From the NCBI RefSeq assembly GCF_025641885.1, contig NZ_JAOTQN010000002.1, positions 124,001-188,000 on the forward strand: a stretch of 64,000 bases of DNA, given 5' to 3'. Every line of letters starts with the position of its first letter. The stretch's first letter is position 1. Source of the stretch: Pyrobaculum sp. 3827-6 (GTDB lineage: Archaea; Thermoproteota; Thermoprotei; Thermoproteales; Thermoproteaceae). The notes under the pieces are model-generated. The model saw nothing but the letters and a program-made list of their open reading frames with translations, was not told the origin of the DNA and made no database searches. Position numbers and translations under genes: made by a program. Below are positions 3,428 to 64,000 of the stretch, piece by piece.

Positions 3428-5368
3428 CTATGATAGTACGAATCTGCCGTAGATGGTGCCCTCCACGGCTCCCTTGATCTCTATCCTATTGTCGTACACC
3501 TCGACCGTTATCCTGTTGCCCCACTCATCCCTTAATACAACAGTGTCGCGGGTTACTTGCTCTGCATGTACATCTGATGCTGACAATATTTTAATTATAA
3601 GCGCCGCCGCGGTGTCTAGCCTAGTCGGCCCCATCAGCGGCTTCTTGAACACCCGCGGGAGGAGCTCCACGGGGTACTGGCACTGCACCTCCTCACCGCT
3701 CTTCAGCGTGACTTTTGTGACTGTTATGGGGTCTACTGTGAACTCCACAACAAGACTTGGTAGATCGAACTGTTGAAGATCTATCTCGGCTTTTCCGCTT
3801 TGTGTGTTGAAAATTCCGTTAAAGTAGGCGTAGCCCGTTTTACCTAGGAGGTAAATCTTTGCGTTTCCGCTGAAGGTTCCCGCGTTGTAGTTTATACCTG
3901 CATAGAGTTCGTATAGAGTTACCAGCTCCTCGTGATATTTGGGTCTCGTGCACTTTATCTTAGTGTTTACCACTCTCGTGTCTCTGAACTCTATCTTTTC
4001 GACGTCTTGGATGCTGAGCGTTGGGGGTACCAGCTTTATCTGTAGCGTAAGTGTGTAGATGGTGCCGTTTATCTCGGTTTTAAGCTCTGCTGTAGATGGT
4101 GCTGTATATGATATAGAGACTTTGACCTTGCGTTCTGGTATGTAGGTGGGTTTTCCCGGCTCTACTCTTACCGCGTTTCCGTCTACCACGAGTGTGAGGA
4201 CTCTACGTGTCGCGTTTGTGTAGATTATTGGTTGCCACACAATTTCCACATCTGGGTCTCTAACCTCTATGGTGGCTTCCTCCCTTGTGGTTTCCATGTA
4301 GCCGCTTTTTTGGATCGGTGCTAGCAACGCTATCTGTACACGATACGTCACCAGTAATATTTTTACTTCTATATCGTATTGCACGTCTCTTGACCTGATA
4401 TTTAATCGATAGGTGCCGGACCGGTTGGCGACTAGACTGAACCACAGAGTTTTCTCCTCCCCCGGCGCAACGGAGTATGCGTCGCCGCCTACTTGGACGG
4501 TGTCTGTGGCGTTTCCGCTGTTCTTTACCACTATTGGTACTGCGATTTTTTCGCCGGGCAGAGCCTCAACCTCCTTGACGGGGGTCTCTACCTCTATCTG
4601 GGCTCTGAGGTATCTTACGTTAACCTCCACCTCCAGGTTTCTGATGTTGACGGTGAAGCGCCCCGCTTTGGTAACATTTACGGTAGCGTTTATGTACACA
4701 CGCTGGCCTGGCCTTATTTCGAGCCCGTCGATGTAGCCAGTAGCGTTGCCAGCATTGCTTACAGCTACTGTAATGTTTACAAGTTTCGGGATCTCTGTGA
4801 CGTTGATGGTCAACGGCTCTGCCTTTAGCAGGGGCGTGTAGTACCACACGTATATCTCCTTTTCAAGGGTGTAATTGCCCACTTTTTCACTTATTTTATG
4901 TCTACCTGCCGTGTAGACCTTCAGCCGCCTCTCAACGCTAACTGACTCGCCTGGCTTCACCACATAGGTCTTGTTGAAGAGTGTAACTTCTGTGGCCGCA
5001 TTTCCTACGTTCTCGACTACTACCCTGTACGCCACCTCGGTGGGTAATTGTGTAGTGTTTACATCGCTAGCCGCGAGCCATGCCTTAAGTTTTGGCTCTT
5101 GCGTAGATGTCGTTGTTGTAACCTGGGGCTGTGTCGTCGTTGTGATTACCGGTTGCGGAGGAGTGGGTGATGTTGTCGCAGATGCTTGGGAGCTAGGCTG
5201 GGGGGTGGTTTGCGTGGTTGTGTAAGTTTGTGTTGGTTGAGTCGTGGTTGGTTTTGACGTTGGCTTTTGAGTTGAGGTTGTCGTGCTGGACTGTGGTGGG
5301 AGCGTCGACAAGGCTACGTACAACGCCACAAGGGCTACTGCCAGGAGTGTTAGTACAACTGCGCGCAT
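3428..5368 (-). CDS. Exported protein with Thr/Pro-rich stalk and tandem CARDB/Ig-like repeats
   Basis: 646 residues. Residues 1-22 are a signal peptide or N-terminal membrane anchor. Residues ~24-92 are almost only Thr, Ser, Pro and Gln, a likely glycosylated stalk. Three repeats follow at about 100-175, 180-255 and 258-340, each built round the same motif (VENVGNA, VSNAGNA, VKNSGNA) then a PGE/PGQ turn, as in CARDB or other Ig-like adhesion folds. The C-terminal 300 residues are beta-rich and unassigned. It is divergent from the metalloprotease gene at 5410 and lies between two other envelope proteins, so a surface-complex role is inferred. The start is fixed by the signal peptide and the AT-rich promoter between the two genes. 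Confidence 0.8.
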   Translation of the reverse strand: MRAVVLTLLAVALVALYVALSTLPPQSSTTTSTQKPTSKPTTTQPTQTYTTTQTTPQPSSQASATTSPTPPQPVITTTTQPQVTTTTSTQEPKLKAWLAASDVNTTQLPTEVAYRVVVENVGNAATEVTLFNKTYVVKPGESVSVERRLKVYTAGRHKISEKVGNYTLEKEIYVWYYTPLLKAEPLTINVTEIPKLVNITVAVSNAGNATGYIDGLEIRPGQRVYINATVNVTKAGRFTVNIRNLEVEVNVRYLRAQIEVETPVKEVEALPGEKIAVPIVVKNSGNATDTVQVGGDAYSVAPGEEKTLWFSLVANRSGTYRLNIRSRDVQYDIEVKILLVTYRVQIALLAPIQKSGYMETTREEATIEVRDPDVEIVWQPIIYTNATRRVLTLVVDGNAVRVEPGKPTYIPERKVKVSISYTAPSTAELKTEINGTIYTLTLQIKLVPPTLSIQDVEKIEFRDTRVVNTKIKCTRPKYHEELVTLYELYAGINYNAGTFSGNAKIYLLGKTGYAYFNGIFNTQSGKAEIDLQQFDLPSLVVEFTVDPITVTKVTLKSGEEVQCQYPVELLPRVFKKPLMGPTRLDTAAALIIKILSASDVHAEQVTRDTVVLRDEWGNRITVEVYDNRIEIKGAVEGTIYGRFVLS

Positions 5369-59407: not shown

Positions 59408-59992
59408 TTATTTGGGTGCCGAGCATAGAATTGGTAGCCACCTACGAAGCTCAATAGCCAGCAAAATCACCTCGGCGTTCTTAGCCTCTCTGGGCAGTTT
59501 CTGAAATAGAGATTCGCAGTCTACTTTTTCGCATATACATTGTAGATCTCTACACTCTTTAATGGCTTCGATTTCCTTCTCCCCTAGGGTTATGTACACC
59601 GCCAGGATTGTCGCTATGAACCTAGCCAACGCGCTTGTGAGGGCTGTGTACAAGTCGTCAATTGATAAAAATATGTAGTCAGGCAGTAGGACTACCTCGA
59701 CGCCGAGTTCTTTTGCTAGCTGTCTAGCTCCGTCATCTGCGTAGCCCCTGGCTATCACCAAGGGCCTGGCGCCGAGTATTTTGGCGTTCACATACGCCTG
59801 TCTTATCCCGCTGATGTCTACCCTCCCGGCCTTTACCTCAATGGCGTAGGTGTTGCCCTTCTCGTCGACGGCGATTATGTCCACCTCGCCTACCTCCACC
59901 CCCTCTCGATACACCTTAAAACGCGTAGCTTTGGGAATCAGCCCAATCGCAGGTAGTAGATCTAACACGTAACGCTCGAAACGGGCCCCCAT
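59408..59992 (-). CDS. PD-(D/E)XK nuclease-fold protein (YraN/RecB-like)
   Basis: 194 residues. EVGEVDIIAVDEKGNTYAIE with VKAG has the D...E-x-K of the restriction-endonuclease fold; ARFERYVLDLLPAIGLIPKA provides the N-terminal Glu. A C-terminal helical part has four cysteines (ECRDLQCICEKVDC), perhaps a metal site. Its ATG at 59992 touches the outer end of the left inverted arm (59996), so the arm forms its upstream region. Confidence 0.82.
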   Translation of the reverse strand: MGARFERYVLDLLPAIGLIPKATRFKVYREGVEVGEVDIIAVDEKGNTYAIEVKAGRVDISGIRQAYVNAKILGARPLVIARGYADDGARQLAKELGVEVVLLPDYIFLSIDDLYTALTSALARFIATILAVYITLGEKEIEAIKECRDLQCICEKVDCESLFQKLPREAKNAEVILLAIELRRWLPILCSAPK

Positions 59993-60032
59993 GCCCCCTT
60001 TCTACTCTCCGGGCGTCCCGGGGGGCACGGGG

Positions 60033-60060
60033 CCCCGAGGCGCCGTTTGGCCCCTCGGGG
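60033..60060. other. GC-rich hairpin conserved in both inverted arms
   Basis: CCCCGAGG pairs with CCTCGGGG around an inner GCC-GTTT-GGC mini-stem. The right arm has the same shape at 62904-62929 with CCCGAGG/CCTCGGG and GCC-ATTT-GGC; the mismatch between the stems is C/C here and T/T there. Conserved shape in two diverged copies suggests a structured RNA or a protein-binding cruciform. Confidence 0.5.
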
Positions 60061-60347
60061 CGGGGCCGCCCGGAGGTTTCCGCGCTGCCCCTTCGGCAGG
60101 CGCGAATATAAGTGCAGTTTCGCCTCCCGGAGCCCTCGCGGGAGGCGGGGCGGGCCTCTGCAAGCCCATGTGTCTAAAAACATACCCCCTATTTATGAAT
60201 TAACGCGTAGGGTAGATGTTGCTGTGTCAGACTTGCCTTCTCTAATTCCAAATTTTTAGATTTGGAACTATTTTCGGCGTATTTCGCCTTTAGCCACCGC
60301 GGCGTGTTGACAGTTCTAAATTATGCAGAAGCGGCGTAACATCCCAT

Positions 60348-60402
60348 CTACATTCTTCCTGATTCAGGAAAATCGTCAGACGTCGAGTCAGGAAGAATGT
60401 AG
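60348..60402. repeat. Palindromic repeat P1 (55 bp)
   Basis: CTACATTCTTCCTGA (60348-60362) is followed, after 25 nt, by its perfect reverse complement (60388-60402), a 15-bp stem. Inside is a second short pair (TTCAGGAAAA) and an ACGTCGA core. It closes the inner end of the left arm. Confidence 0.85.
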
Positions 60403-60474
60403 AAGAAATAGCTGAAAGCTGTGGCTGGTTTTGAACTTCTCCAATTCTCTATTACTCTGCCGGCGGGAGGGGGC

Positions 60475-60624
60475 ATGCCGTGTATATATGTAGATAGAGA
60501 GACCGCGGAGCGGCTTAAGATGCTCAAGGCTGGGTTTGAGCGCGCGGCGGGCAGACGCGCCACGTGGACAGAGCTCCTTATACACCTCGCCGAAGTCTAT
60601 GAATTCGGCTCGTTCTGCGTCTAG
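60475..60624 (+). CDS. Small ribbon-helix-helix-like protein
   Basis: 49 residues from ATG 60475. CIYVDRETAERLKMLKAGFE and ATWTELLIHLAEVYEF suit a short beta-strand plus two helices, as in RHH repressors and antitoxins. The frame extends to 60421 upstream without a clear start signal. It is enclosed by palindromes P1 and P2, which could be its binding sites. Function inferred from shape and place only. Confidence 0.5.
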   Translation: MPCIYVDRETAERLKMLKAGFERAAGRRATWTELLIHLAEVYEFGSFCV

Positions 60625-60667
60625 CCAGGCCGCCTACACCCGTACCTGCCTCTGTGGACAACCCCAT

Positions 60668-60722
60668 CTACATTCTTCCTGATCCTACGTCGTACATTCT
60701 TCCTGAATCAGGAAAAATGTAG
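60668..60722. repeat. Palindromic repeat P2 (55 bp)
   Basis: CTACATTCTTCCTGA at 60668-60682, a second TACATTCTTCCTGA at 60693-60706, and the inverted TCAGGAAAAATGTAG at 60708-60722. Same length and outer ends as P1. It stands 42 nt before the GIY-YIG-like gene. Confidence 0.85.
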
Positions 60723-60764
60723 ATGAGTTGAATGCAGTAGCTGGCTTTAAACTCTGGTGTATAT

Positions 60765-61259
60765 GTGGGGGCTGTCCACTACGTCTACCTGGCCATCGCC
60801 AGGGGAAGGGTGGCCTACGTGGGGATGGGGAAGCGCCGCGGCCGCTACGATCGCATCGACAGACACCTCCGCGGCTACTCCTCAGCCGACAAGAGAGGGC
60901 TCAAGGCGGAGCTGTTTATCGTGGCGGCCTACACCCGTAATAGGCGCCTCGCCGAGAAGTGGGAGAGGTGGCTCCACGCGGTCTTCAACCCGCCATACGC
61001 CGAGAGGAGGCCGAGGAGGCCGCCTAGAAAGCCTCCCCTCTTCCCCAGGGCCAGACGCCGGGACAAGCCGGTGGAGGAGCCGATGATCATGGCGAAATAC
61101 GCCGAGCTGATGGGCTTCTCGCCAGCGCCTCTACGCTTCTGGCAGAGACTATCGGCGGCCGCTCGGAAAACGGCTCAGTTTCGGAAACGTATGTGGACAA
61201 GCCTCGCCCTGATTGAAGAAGCAAAACTAGTGAGGAAGCGGAGTTTAATTCAACGTTAG
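60765..61259 (+). CDS. GIY-YIG-like nuclease upstream of TnpB
   Basis: 164 residues from GTG 60765. HYVYLAIARGRVAYVGMGKR (5-24) gives the two Tyr strands of a GIY-YIG fold; then RGRYDRIDRHLRG has the catalytic-type Arg and His, and RRLAEKWERWLHAVFN (60-75) the Glu helix (Glu64 or Glu67). Residues ~80-100 are a basic Arg/Pro linker (RRPRRPPRKP), then a helical tail. It lies 19 nt before tnpB on the same strand. Such a neighbour for TnpB is not a standard arrangement that I know. A CTTTAAAC block lies ~14-21 nt upstream. Confidence 0.65.
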   Translation: MGAVHYVYLAIARGRVAYVGMGKRRGRYDRIDRHLRGYSSADKRGLKAELFIVAAYTRNRRLAEKWERWLHAVFNPPYAERRPRRPPRKPPLFPRARRRDKPVEEPMIMAKYAELMGFSPAPLRFWQRLSAAARKTAQFRKRMWTSLALIEEAKLVRKRSLIQR

Positions 61260-61278
61260 GAGGTGTGCGTAGCGGGAC

Positions 61279-62472
61279 ATGGGCTACCGAACGCTAGTGA
61301 TTAGGAGGAGAGTTGAGGAGATACCACTGGAGCAGTTAATCAAGTTCTTAGAGGTGCAGGAGAGGTTTAGGCAGCGGGCAACGGAGTGGTACAAGAGCGG
61401 ATTCAAAGCACCGCTCCCGGAGCAGAACCCGTTGAAGTACTTCGCTAAGGAGCTGAAGCATGCGATGAAGCTTCTGCCTACGAACGGGCTTAAGAACGGT
61501 GTGTGGAGAGTGCCGCTACCTCTCGACGCAGAGCTGAGGCTGAAGGAAGGCGAGAGGGATAATGGCCGTGGTGTTTTTGTAGATTTCGCAGAATTTAGAG
61601 ATGGGAAACAGAAAGAGAAGGTGATCAAGGTGAGGAAGTGGAGTGGCGAGAGAGGCAACACCATTGTGATTAGGCTGAGGAGAACAGAGGTTAAATGGAT
61701 TGAGGAGCGGATAAGGGAAGGCGCCGAGCTGAAGTTCGCCTTGGCGTGGGTGGGCAAGAGGAGGAGCGGCAACATTATGAGCTTCAACATGGCGCTTGTG
61801 TTCCACAGAGAAATTACGCCATATCAGCCCAAGCGGCTTCTCGTAGTCGACGTCAACGCCCTCCACAACGGCGTCGTCTACGCTGTGGTTGAGGAAAGGC
61901 GCGTGTTGGAGAAGTCTGTGCTCAAGCCAGATCTCGGCCGCATCGGCCGTCTGGAGGGTGAAGCCGCTAGGCTGGACTCCCTCTGCTCCACAAAAGGCAT
62001 CTACTGTAACAAAGCCACAGCATTGAAAAGCAGGCTGTGGCGCCTCTGGAGGCAGTGGACGGTAGAGGTAACGAAGAAAATTGTGAAACTTGCTATGCAA
62101 TACAAAGCCGCCATTGTAGTGGACAAACCGCTGGATGAATCAATCAGAGAGTTGAAGGAGAGCGAAAAAGTGAAACCGGGCGCCAAAAAGTATCTCGACG
62201 TGGGGAGGTTCGCGAAGAGGCTGAGGGGGCTGGCGGAGTGGTACGGTGTGCCATACAGAGAAGAGAGACTGCACTCCACCATCTGCCCCGTATGCGGAAG
62301 CAAGATGGAGGAACTACCGAACAGAAGGGTGAGATGTGTTACATGCGGCTTTGAGCCCCAGCGCGATGAAGTGCCCATAATATGGGCCCAGAAGAAGTTC
62401 CGGGAAATACTACCCCTTTTTTTCCACAACATATTTCATTCAACTATCCCCTCTACATTCCTCCTGACTTGA
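61279..62472 (+). CDS. TnpB-like RuvC nuclease (IS605 OrfB family)
   Basis: 397 residues, compact TnpB size. The RuvC parts are LLVVDVNALHNGV with Asp191, KAAIVVDKPLDESI with Asp282 where most TnpBs have Glu, and EPQRDEVPIIWAQ with Asp363. The zinc finger between them has C336, C339, C353 and C356 (TICPVCGSKM...VRCVTCGF). The N-terminal half is the REC/WED-like region. Known TnpBs are RNA-guided DNA nucleases whose guide RNA lies at the 3' end of the gene; here the last codons lie inside palindrome P3. The E-to-D change occurs in some Thermoproteales relatives, as far as I recall. Confidence 0.85.
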   Translation: MGYRTLVIRRRVEEIPLEQLIKFLEVQERFRQRATEWYKSGFKAPLPEQNPLKYFAKELKHAMKLLPTNGLKNGVWRVPLPLDAELRLKEGERDNGRGVFVDFAEFRDGKQKEKVIKVRKWSGERGNTIVIRLRRTEVKWIEERIREGAELKFALAWVGKRRSGNIMSFNMALVFHREITPYQPKRLLVVDVNALHNGVVYAVVEERRVLEKSVLKPDLGRIGRLEGEAARLDSLCSTKGIYCNKATALKSRLWRLWRQWTVEVTKKIVKLAMQYKAAIVVDKPLDESIRELKESEKVKPGAKKYLDVGRFAKRLRGLAEWYGVPYREERLHSTICPVCGSKMEELPNRRVRCVTCGFEPQRDEVPIIWAQKKFREILPLFFHNIFHSTIPSTFLLT

Positions 62473-62505
62473 AATCATACAAACTTCTTGATCAGGAAGA
62501 ATGTG
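62453..62505. repeat. Palindromic repeat P3 at the tnpB stop
   Basis: CTACATTCCTCCTGA (62453-62467) overlaps the last tnpB codons; the inverted TCAGGAAGAATGT is at 62492-62504. It is the inner end of the right arm and mirrors P1 and P2. An ACGTCGAATCAAGAAG stretch follows at 62507-62522. Confidence 0.8.
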
Positions 62506-62964
62506 TTACGTCGAATCAAGAAGATTATCTGACATGTTTCTGCGGCTTCTGATAGATTTAAAACTGTCTACACGCCACGGTAGCTGAAGGCGAAGTGCAC
62601 CGAGGCCACTTCCAAATCTAAAAATTTAGAATTAGAGACACAGTTAGACACACGCTACACGTTAATTCATAACGGCCCCCACGTTGCGCTCTCTCCACAA
62701 TATAAATATAACCTTTTGTGCTCCGTCTGCCAGCCTCCAAAGCCTACGCGGAGCCGCCTAAATGTTTAGGACATGTACAAGTTTGATGGAGAAAGAGGGG
62801 GCTAACATGTAGGCGCCCACCCGGCCTCCAGCGGGGGCTCTGGGAAGAGTTACTGTGCCTAATACGCATCTGCAGAAGGGGCGACGTTGATCCTCCGGGC
62901 GGCCCCGAGGAGCCAAATGGCACCTCGGGCCCCGAGCCCCGGGGACGCTGGAGGGGGTATCATG
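62453..62964. repeat. Right arm of the long inverted repeat
   Basis: Inverted counterpart of 59996-60402. Blocks in order outward: P3, ~62543-62593, 62610-62635 (AT-rich hairpin), a TTAATTCATA block at 62662-62671, then ~210 bp mostly unique to this arm (with an AATATAAATATAAC TATA-like stretch at 62698-62711), and the GC-rich hairpin at 62904-62929. The 535-bp gap 62473-63007 holds no convincing gene besides this arm. Confidence 0.72.
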
Positions 62965-63007
62965 TCTCACGACGTGTTTGCCAAACGTAAATCGCTTGAC
63001 ACATCCA

Positions 63008-63310
63008 TCAATTTGGCGGCTTTTCTGAACTCTCTATATTTGTCTTTTTTGTGAGTTCTTCGTCTGCTAATGCCAGTGCTTGGAGTAGAGAGTGGATGGG
63101 TTCTGCGTCTCGTAGCTTTACTAGTCTAGCGCGTCCGATGCGCTTCTCCTCAACTAATCCGTAGTCGACGAGGAGTTTCAAGTGGAGGGCTAGCTGGTTG
63201 TAGTTGGTGTTTAGAATGTGGGCGAGTTCGGTCATGTTTACCTCACCCCACTTCCAGAGCGCCAGGAGTATACGTATGCGTAGCGGCGCGCCTAGGACCT
63301 CCTCGATCAT
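63008..63310 (-). CDS. ArsR-like winged-helix regulator
   Basis: 100 residues from ATG 63310. LGAPLRIRILLALWKWGEVN, MTELAHILNTNYNQLALHLK and LLVDYGLVEEKRIGRARLVK form the ArsR/MarR-like winged helix. No metal-binding Cys set is seen. It overlaps the orc1/cdc6 stop by 4 nt and is read after it on the same strand; this downstream wHTH neighbour could influence replication genes. Confidence 0.87.
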   Translation of the reverse strand: MIEEVLGAPLRIRILLALWKWGEVNMTELAHILNTNYNQLALHLKLLVDYGLVEEKRIGRARLVKLRDAEPIHSLLQALALADEELTKKTNIESSEKPPN

Positions 63311-64000
63311 CTAAGCTCCTCTCTTATTAGTTTGGCGAGCACCGACTCAAGCGTATCAAGCGGCTCGGTTCCTATTGATATGAGCGTTGTGCGCCCCCGC
63401 ACGCCCTCTCCCCTCTTATTTTGCCTAGTTTCAATTATACCTTTTTCTCTTAGATCATTGAGGTAGGTCCAAAGCTGGCTGTGTACTCTTGGCTTCTCTC
63501 CGTATTCCTCGCAGGCTATTTTATAGGCCTCCTCTGCTTCGCCAAATGTTACATATGGCATATGAGAGATTTTTAGCGACCTAACTATGGCAAGTAGGAA
63601 AAGTTTTTCATGGAGAGGCAGGCCGACGAGCACCTCTTCGGATATGCCAAAGAGCACCTCTTTCGACGATCTTCTGACGTCTTCTGGTGTTATTTGTCTC
63701 CTTCCGTTCTGTTGCGCGGCGTATGCAGCTCTGTAGAGGATGTCTATGGCAAGTCTGGCGTCGCCTCTATTTGTATCAAGCGGACTCTGGGCGCCTGTGA
63801 TGTCGGCTATCATCTGGAGGATGTCTTCGCTGTAGGAACCCTCTGCGAGACCCGCCCTGGCTCTGTCAAGTAATATGCTGAAGATTTGTTCCTTAGTGTA
63901 TGGGGGGAAGCGTATTACGTACTTCCCCATTATTCCACGAGTCGATGGATCTAGGTTGTTGAGAACAGTGTCGTTGTGCCCCACGACTACGAGAGCAATT
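63307..64000 (-). CDS. cdc6: Orc1/Cdc6 origin-binding AAA+ protein, 3' part
   Basis: 231 codons to the window edge; the 5' end is outside. IALVVVGHNDTVLNNLDPST includes sensor 1, GKYVIRFPPYTKEQIFSILL and RGDARLAIDILYRAAYAAQQ (sensor 2 area) lead to a C-terminal winged helix (YVTFGEAEEAYKIACEEYGE, RVHSQLWTYLNDLREKGIIE). It recognises replication origins and loads MCM. In archaea an origin often lies just beside such a gene, here probably beyond 64000. Confidence 0.94.
   Translation of the reverse strand, partial: IALVVVGHNDTVLNNLDPSTRGIMGKYVIRFPPYTKEQIFSILLDRARAGLAEGSYSEDILQMIADITGAQSPLDTNRGDARLAIDILYRAAYAAQQNGRRQITPEDVRRSSKEVLFGISEEVLVGLPLHEKLFLLAIVRSLKISHMPYVTFGEAEEAYKIACEEYGEKPRVHSQLWTYLNDLREKGIIETRQNKRGEGVRGRTTLISIGTEPLDTLESVLAKLIREELR

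Follow-up and report, generated by a model that had tools for sequence, protein, structure and literature searches.

TnpB is the ancestor of Cas12, and what is known of its biology is tied to the transposase TnpA. In the IS200/IS605 family and its IS1341-type members, tnpB is accompanied by a structured RNA whose 3′ end coincides with the element end and runs on into a guide taken from the flank, and insertion occurs 3′ of a short fixed motif (PMC8612924). Fanzor-bearing Helitron2 elements, such as CRe-1/2/3 of Chlamydomonas, end precisely at the 3′ side, are often truncated at the 5′ side, carry captured DNA and show 7-19-bp duplications directly after a target tetranucleotide, TTTT (PMC3627910), and the one-ended transposition of Helitron and IS91 elements likewise yields a precise 3′ end and a variable 5′ end with duplications. 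The viral mariner PGv-1 combines a TnpB homologue (Fanzor) and a GIY-YIG protein in one element (PMC3627910), and the GIY-YIG homing endonuclease I-TevI cleaves at CNNNG (PMC4065259). Here we describe an element carrying tnpB and a GIY-YIG-like gene in Pyrobaculum sp. 3827-6. The window analysed is a stretch of 64,000 nucleotides from its 2.30-Mb genome (G000:C2:124001-188000); G-numbers denote the genomes compared, among them the sister species G004, and L-numbers denote loci within them.

The element shares with IS200/IS605 and IS1341-type elements its tnpB, a putative structured RNA ending at the element end, a would-be guide flank and a short fixed motif. It differs in having a GIY-YIG partner and no TnpA found in the genus, in an RNA unit that is separate from tnpB and may lie on either side of it, and in 6-11-bp duplications with a variable second end, where IS605 makes no duplication and has both ends exact. 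The scars match those described for Helitron2; the host, however, is archaeal, the motif is CGGCG rather than TTTT, a GIY-YIG partner is present, and no Helitron protein was seen in a genome-wide HUH-type search that used the Y1_Tnp model only. PGv-1, in contrast, belongs to a eukaryotic virus and has a mariner transposase, terminal inverted repeats and TA duplications. With GIY-YIG homing endonucleases the element shares nuclease motifs and a target motif compatible with the CNNNG cleavage motif, whereas it has no intron, no single homing site and an unrelated C-terminal region. No TnpB operon with a GIY-YIG partner was found in the searchable literature. We interpret the element as a member of a Pyrobaculum family of TnpB mobile elements without any TnpA, which in two sister species has acquired a GIY-YIG-like operon partner, and give this explanation, together with the one-ended movement proposed below, a probability of roughly 0.6. 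On this reading tnpB elements have spread through the genus without a detectable Y1 TnpA, and their insertion scars differ from those of IS605 but resemble those left by Fanzor-bearing Helitrons in eukaryotes. The question of how TnpB elements move without TnpA becomes directly testable, since occupied and empty sites are available from the sister species and both nucleases are small, thermostable and suited to expression and assay.

Extent and parts of the element

With flanks about 95% identical in G004, each occupied site can be set directly against its empty counterpart. Alignment of the window to the empty site of the sister species (L189) places the ends of the element at 59992 and 62673. 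The palindromes, between which the initial annotation had set the element, are therefore not its ends, although all three of them, the 164-aa open reading frame (ORF) and tnpB lie where that annotation had put them. The parts are as follows.

59984..59991, left copy of the target-site duplication GGCCCCCA, single in G004 and double in the window
59992..62673, whole mobile element, window copy, 2682 bp, aligned to the empty site with flanks 93-99% identical
59992..60167, minus strand, structured RNA region, candidate omegaRNA, with its 3′ end ...CCCGGAGAGTAGAAAGGGGGCA at 59992 and its start inferred from the TATA-like box
60188..60205, minus strand, TATA-like box TTAATTCATAAATAGGGG preceding the RNA region, conserved among copies, presumed promoter
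60347..60403, palindrome P1, with four TACATTYTTCCTGA-type half-sites
60421..60624, plus strand, RHH-like small ORF, 67 aa, private to the window copy and absent from other copies
60665..60725, palindrome P2, directly upstream of the GIY-YIG promoter region
60765..61259, plus strand, GIY-YIG-like nuclease gene, 164 aa
61279..62472, plus strand, tnpB, 397 aa, TNB/zinc ribbon
62452..62532, palindrome P3, downstream of tnpB
62542..62673, left-arm copy, inverted and truncated, 78-80% complementary to 60193-60335, stopping at the target duplication
62674..62681, right copy of the target-site duplication GGCCCCCA, from the comparison with the G004 empty site

The fixed end ...GGAGAGYAGAAAGGGGGYA (pattern ...GGGGGYA) is the end of a conserved structured-RNA region, not of a palindrome. 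Terminal arms were found in 26 copies from five genomes, all ending ...GACGCCCGGAGAGYAGAAAGGGGGYA with minor variation, and the sequences diverge beyond this point. In each arm the TATA-like box lies about 25 nt ahead of a GC-rich stretch of about 175 nt that carries the conserved terminal sequence. Single-sequence folds show a terminal hairpin in which the stem sequence varies from copy to copy and complementarity is kept; across the whole arm RNAalifold gave almost no covariation term, the two RNA subtypes being misaligned. The arm has no Rfam match. It is a candidate omegaRNA, whose guide would presumably be drawn from the flank (59991 downwards). The omegaRNA had initially been expected at 62350-62520, at the other side of the genes; the conserved region is instead the left one, read leftwards. 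In L024, L025, L029 and L031, by comparison, the arm lies beyond the 3′ end of tnpB, so the gene cassette between the palindromes can face either way relative to the arm. Genome G003 has a similar structured stretch directly after tnpB, ending GGGGGCA, GGGGAGC or GGGGGAC.

Each palindrome is built of four TACATTYTTCCTGA-type half-sites, with paired arms of 19 nt at 95% (P1), 19 nt at 95% (P2) and 18 nt at 83% (P3). The earlier description of P3 as inverted against P2 is meaningless, since palindromes are self-complementary. A palindrome lies upstream of the GIY-YIG gene in nearly all copies, and the tnpB of G003 has a different upstream palindrome, CACCTGCCTGACAG... The palindromes resemble the left-end hairpins of transposons, and an operator role is conceivable. 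The RHH-like ORF had been proposed as a repressor that binds them. It has no Pfam match above the cut-off and no homologue in 31 genomes, so the element has not conserved it; the ORF was probably captured or arose by chance, and the repressor proposal falls with it. We also considered whether the inverted partial arms arose through snap-back copying at the palindromes. These arms are mostly only 68-80% alike (up to 89%) and so were not made at the recent insertions.

Insertion sites and target motif

Both junctions are known for nine insertions, each from an empty site in the sister genome, and the nine sites are all different. Six of them carry a target duplication, of 8 bp in the window, 7 in L026, 6 in L031, 11 in L036, 10 in L137 and about 10 in L142 (with one mismatch). 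The L029 insertion is exact, with no duplication, and target DNA has been lost at the remaining two (about 10 bp at L025, 1080 bp at L024). The variable end falls inside the truncated inverted arm in the window and L025, just past the palindrome in L024 and L026, within the GIY-YIG gene in L036, and in captured DNA in L029, L031, L137 and L142. The cargo of L029 is a 650-bp fragment that matches another locus of the genome at 95-97% identity. That of L142 in G004 (L142:3941-6103) contains a CRISPR-array-like fragment, with the repeated translation FQLSFDFR, and a 132-aa ORF.

Comparison with ten empty sites shows the precise end joined exactly at the 3′ side of a CGGCG|T-like motif. Over positions -5..0 the information amounts to 5.35 bits against 1.46 at random positions, and none of 20,000 draws was as high (n=10), the motif positions having been set by the junction and not optimised, with L031 and L142 ambiguous by one to three bases. 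T stands at +1 in nine of the ten sites, and five of the ten fit CNNNG, where 0.9 would be expected. The motif sits where a transposon-associated motif (TAM) would be, directly 5′ of the would-be guide.

The GIY-YIG-like gene and its linkage to tnpB

The tnpB of the window has three more full copies in G000 at 74-76% identity and two in G004. Each of the six intact tnpB genes in this clade, four from G000 and two from G004, has a GIY-YIG-like gene directly upstream on the same strand, so the pairing seen in the initial annotation is no lone insertion, and its recurrence in five other copies makes the gene order more than chance. Spacing in intact pairs ranges from an 18-nt overlap up to 55 bp; in one G004 copy (L031) the GIY-YIG gene is frameshifted after about residue 85. 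The ratio of non-synonymous to synonymous divergence (Ka/Ks) is 0.12-0.21 for tnpB and 0.14-0.41 for most GIY-YIG pairs, rising to 0.59 against the distant L028 (first 105 codons). These ratios indicate that purifying selection acts on both genes.

The initial annotation had named the 164-aa protein GIY-YIG-like. Taken alone, it matches the Pfam GIY-YIG model weakly, below the cut-off (E=0.065), and three of ten family members match the model. The assignment is carried by the family: the VYL...YVG tyrosines, an Arg/His region and Glu64/Glu67 (L029 numbering) are conserved in the alignment, and the homologue in the same genus (L035 of G006) passes the curated cut-off with E=7.8e-5. We regard the protein as a probable, divergent GIY-YIG nuclease. 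A single-sequence structure model of low confidence (predicted local distance difference test, pLDDT, 53) shows strand-strand-helix-strand-helix, the expected order; a Foldseek search with this low-confidence model gave no significant match, with Slx1 (6seh) at rank 4. A profile comparison with other archaeal GIY-YIG proteins by hhalign was not significant, a sequence search of the PDB returned nothing, and no relatives were found in the GTDB contigs, viral contigs and phages searched.

Apart from G000 and G004, only two genomes yielded members of the family: G015, from another genus, where the neighbouring gene is a 440-468-aa ORF in place of tnpB, and G006, with the distant homologue. The TnpB proteins of G002, G003, G005, G006 and G018 are without a GIY-YIG partner. 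Other tnpB elements of the genus with the same RNA and terminal motif lack it, which means that TnpB elements in general can do without the gene, and the abundance of tnpB elements without GIY-YIG in G003 makes it more likely that the gene is accessory rather than essential.

The GIY-YIG gene was also seen at loci without tnpB. At L030 (G004), L034 (G015) and L028/L033 (G000/G004) it is followed by a 439-468-aa ORF, beside a tRNA-like sequence. This ORF has no Pfam match and contains a PLLTWYLGDG-like motif reminiscent of LAGLIDADG. L030 and L034 occupy an identical insertion site in homologous genes, though their host genera differ. At L032 in G004 (around 3440-3500) a GIY-YIG/ORF440 remnant abuts a tRNA-like gene, not called by ARAGORN, with an apparent extra of about 29 nt in the T-arm region, while its G000 orthologue (L206, around 1662) has neither the extra nucleotides nor the remnant; L032 is a possible case of a recent tRNA intron gain tied to the element.

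TnpB proteins and tnpB copies

The TnpB of the window contains a Cas12f1-like TNB domain (28.8 bits against a Pfam cut-off of 26.3) and matches the NCBIfam model guided_TnpB weakly, below that model's cut-off (E=0.0012). No TnpB homologues were found in the phages searched. One relative, G003, has up to 61 tnpB matches in a 1.8-Mb genome (G003:C1, L216-L235) and neither TnpA nor GIY-YIG; some of these tnpB genes stand head-to-head, inverted around a palindrome. Only L232 among the G003 loci is cut off abruptly at its 5′ side while retaining the 3′ end. The apparent surplus of C-terminal tnpB fragments in this genome was not used as evidence, detection being biased towards the conserved C-terminus. 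In G000, L138 (3707-11892) has two inverted terminal arms 7.5 kb apart and is possibly a composite element; between the arms lie heterodisulfide-reductase-like genes, a peroxiredoxin gene that is duplicated, a 206-aa ORF and a second tnpB-like ORF (455 aa).

How the elements may move

No transposase gene was found in the interval of the element, in agreement with the initial annotation, which had seen neither TnpA nor a serine recombinase there, and Y1 TnpA (PF01797) was absent from 11 Pyrobaculum genomes in searches whose positive controls worked. IS607 has a serine recombinase TnpA next to tnpB; here serine recombinases (PF00239) number one to three genes per genome of the genus, and in G000 and G004 none lies near the elements. 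The RNA-coding arm supplies the one precise end, at which new insertions join exactly beside the CGGCG|T-like motif, and the other end, which lies near palindromic hairpins, varies. Because the scars match those of Fanzor-bearing Helitron2, we infer a one-ended movement, probably single-strand or replicative, that would start at the RNA end and be finished by repair. The TnpB-RNA complex might guard or restore occupied sites, as in IS605, and the GIY-YIG-like enzyme might act as an accessory second nuclease, nicking or cutting either the target DNA or the palindromes. A bolder form of this proposal is improbable: a TnpB element without a HUH, serine, DDE or reverse transcriptase enzyme of its own, in which GIY-YIG cuts a CNNNG-type target, the RNA-coding end is joined by one-ended target-primed copying and TnpB secures the result.

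Several observations weigh against the explanation favoured here. The ten target sites are all drawn from G000 and G004, the two genomes with GIY-YIG, and the TnpB elements of G002, G003 and G006 have the terminal motif but no GIY-YIG. The catalytic RuvC-I and RuvC-III Asp residues of TnpB are present, and an Asp occupies the RuvC-II position; this residue is usually Glu in the family, so TnpB activity is not assured. Finally, no pair of copies stems from a recent duplication (most Ks values are 0.3-1.6), and separate arrivals from outside are therefore as likely as copying inside the genome.

The GIY-YIG-like protein could be more than accessory, namely the mobilising nuclease that takes the place of TnpA, cutting a CNNNG-type target (CGGCG) and freeing the element end, with host repair completing the insertion. 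Besides TnpB, the element encodes no further conserved protein, and the elements have no other linked transposase; L030 and L034 pair the GIY-YIG-like protein with the same end and palindromes in the absence of tnpB, and the excess of CNNNG among the targets recalls the cleavage motif of I-TevI (PMC4065259). However, GIY-YIG enzymes are known as hydrolases and not as strand-transfer enzymes, and the tnpB-rich G003 does without one; we consider this role possible but unlikely.

Alternatively, the element could be an ordinary IS1341-type (tnpB-only) derivative of IS605, moved in trans by a TnpA from a plasmid or virus, with GIY-YIG as a passenger. IS605 elements likewise insert 3′ of a short, fixed motif, bear hairpins at their ends and have an RNA end that a guide follows (PMC8612924). 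Yet none of the 11 genus genomes holds a Y1 TnpA, IS605 shows neither target duplications nor ragged ends (PMC7290912), and purifying selection on GIY-YIG next to tnpB in all intact copies is unlike a random passenger, which leaves this explanation quite improbable.

The initial annotation had also offered a homing-type element that spreads by cleavage and repair. Homing to one cognate site would be favoured by two nucleases in one element and by the common site of L030 and L034 in two genera. The nine insertions known at both junctions occupy sites unrelated to one another, so homing to one site was rejected for the tnpB-bearing copies; L030 and L034 lack tnpB, and their shared site may reflect descent or transfer. 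Homing is accordingly very improbable. LINE-like retrotransposition of the RNA, for which a precise 3′ end, 5′ truncation and variable duplications would suit target-primed synthesis, was likewise rejected and is very improbable, since no reverse transcriptase (PF00078) was found in 21 genomes and the gene cassette can face towards or away from the RNA end.

Surroundings of the element in the window

Directly to the right, at 62674-62965, lies a decayed terminal arm that resembles a second arm. It was rejected as part of the element because it is already present at the empty locus of G004; it is therefore an older remnant, and the locus has received such an element at least twice. To the left, an Mrr/NucS-like nuclease gene with weak Pfam matches (59408-59991, minus strand) would be read by RNA-arm transcripts leaving the element. 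The junction with the element falls exactly at the start codon of this gene, which is GTG in G004 and ATG in the window, where the A is the terminal base of the element. A Cdc6/Orc1 gene lies beside the element at 63307-63984, which suggests a replication origin nearby.

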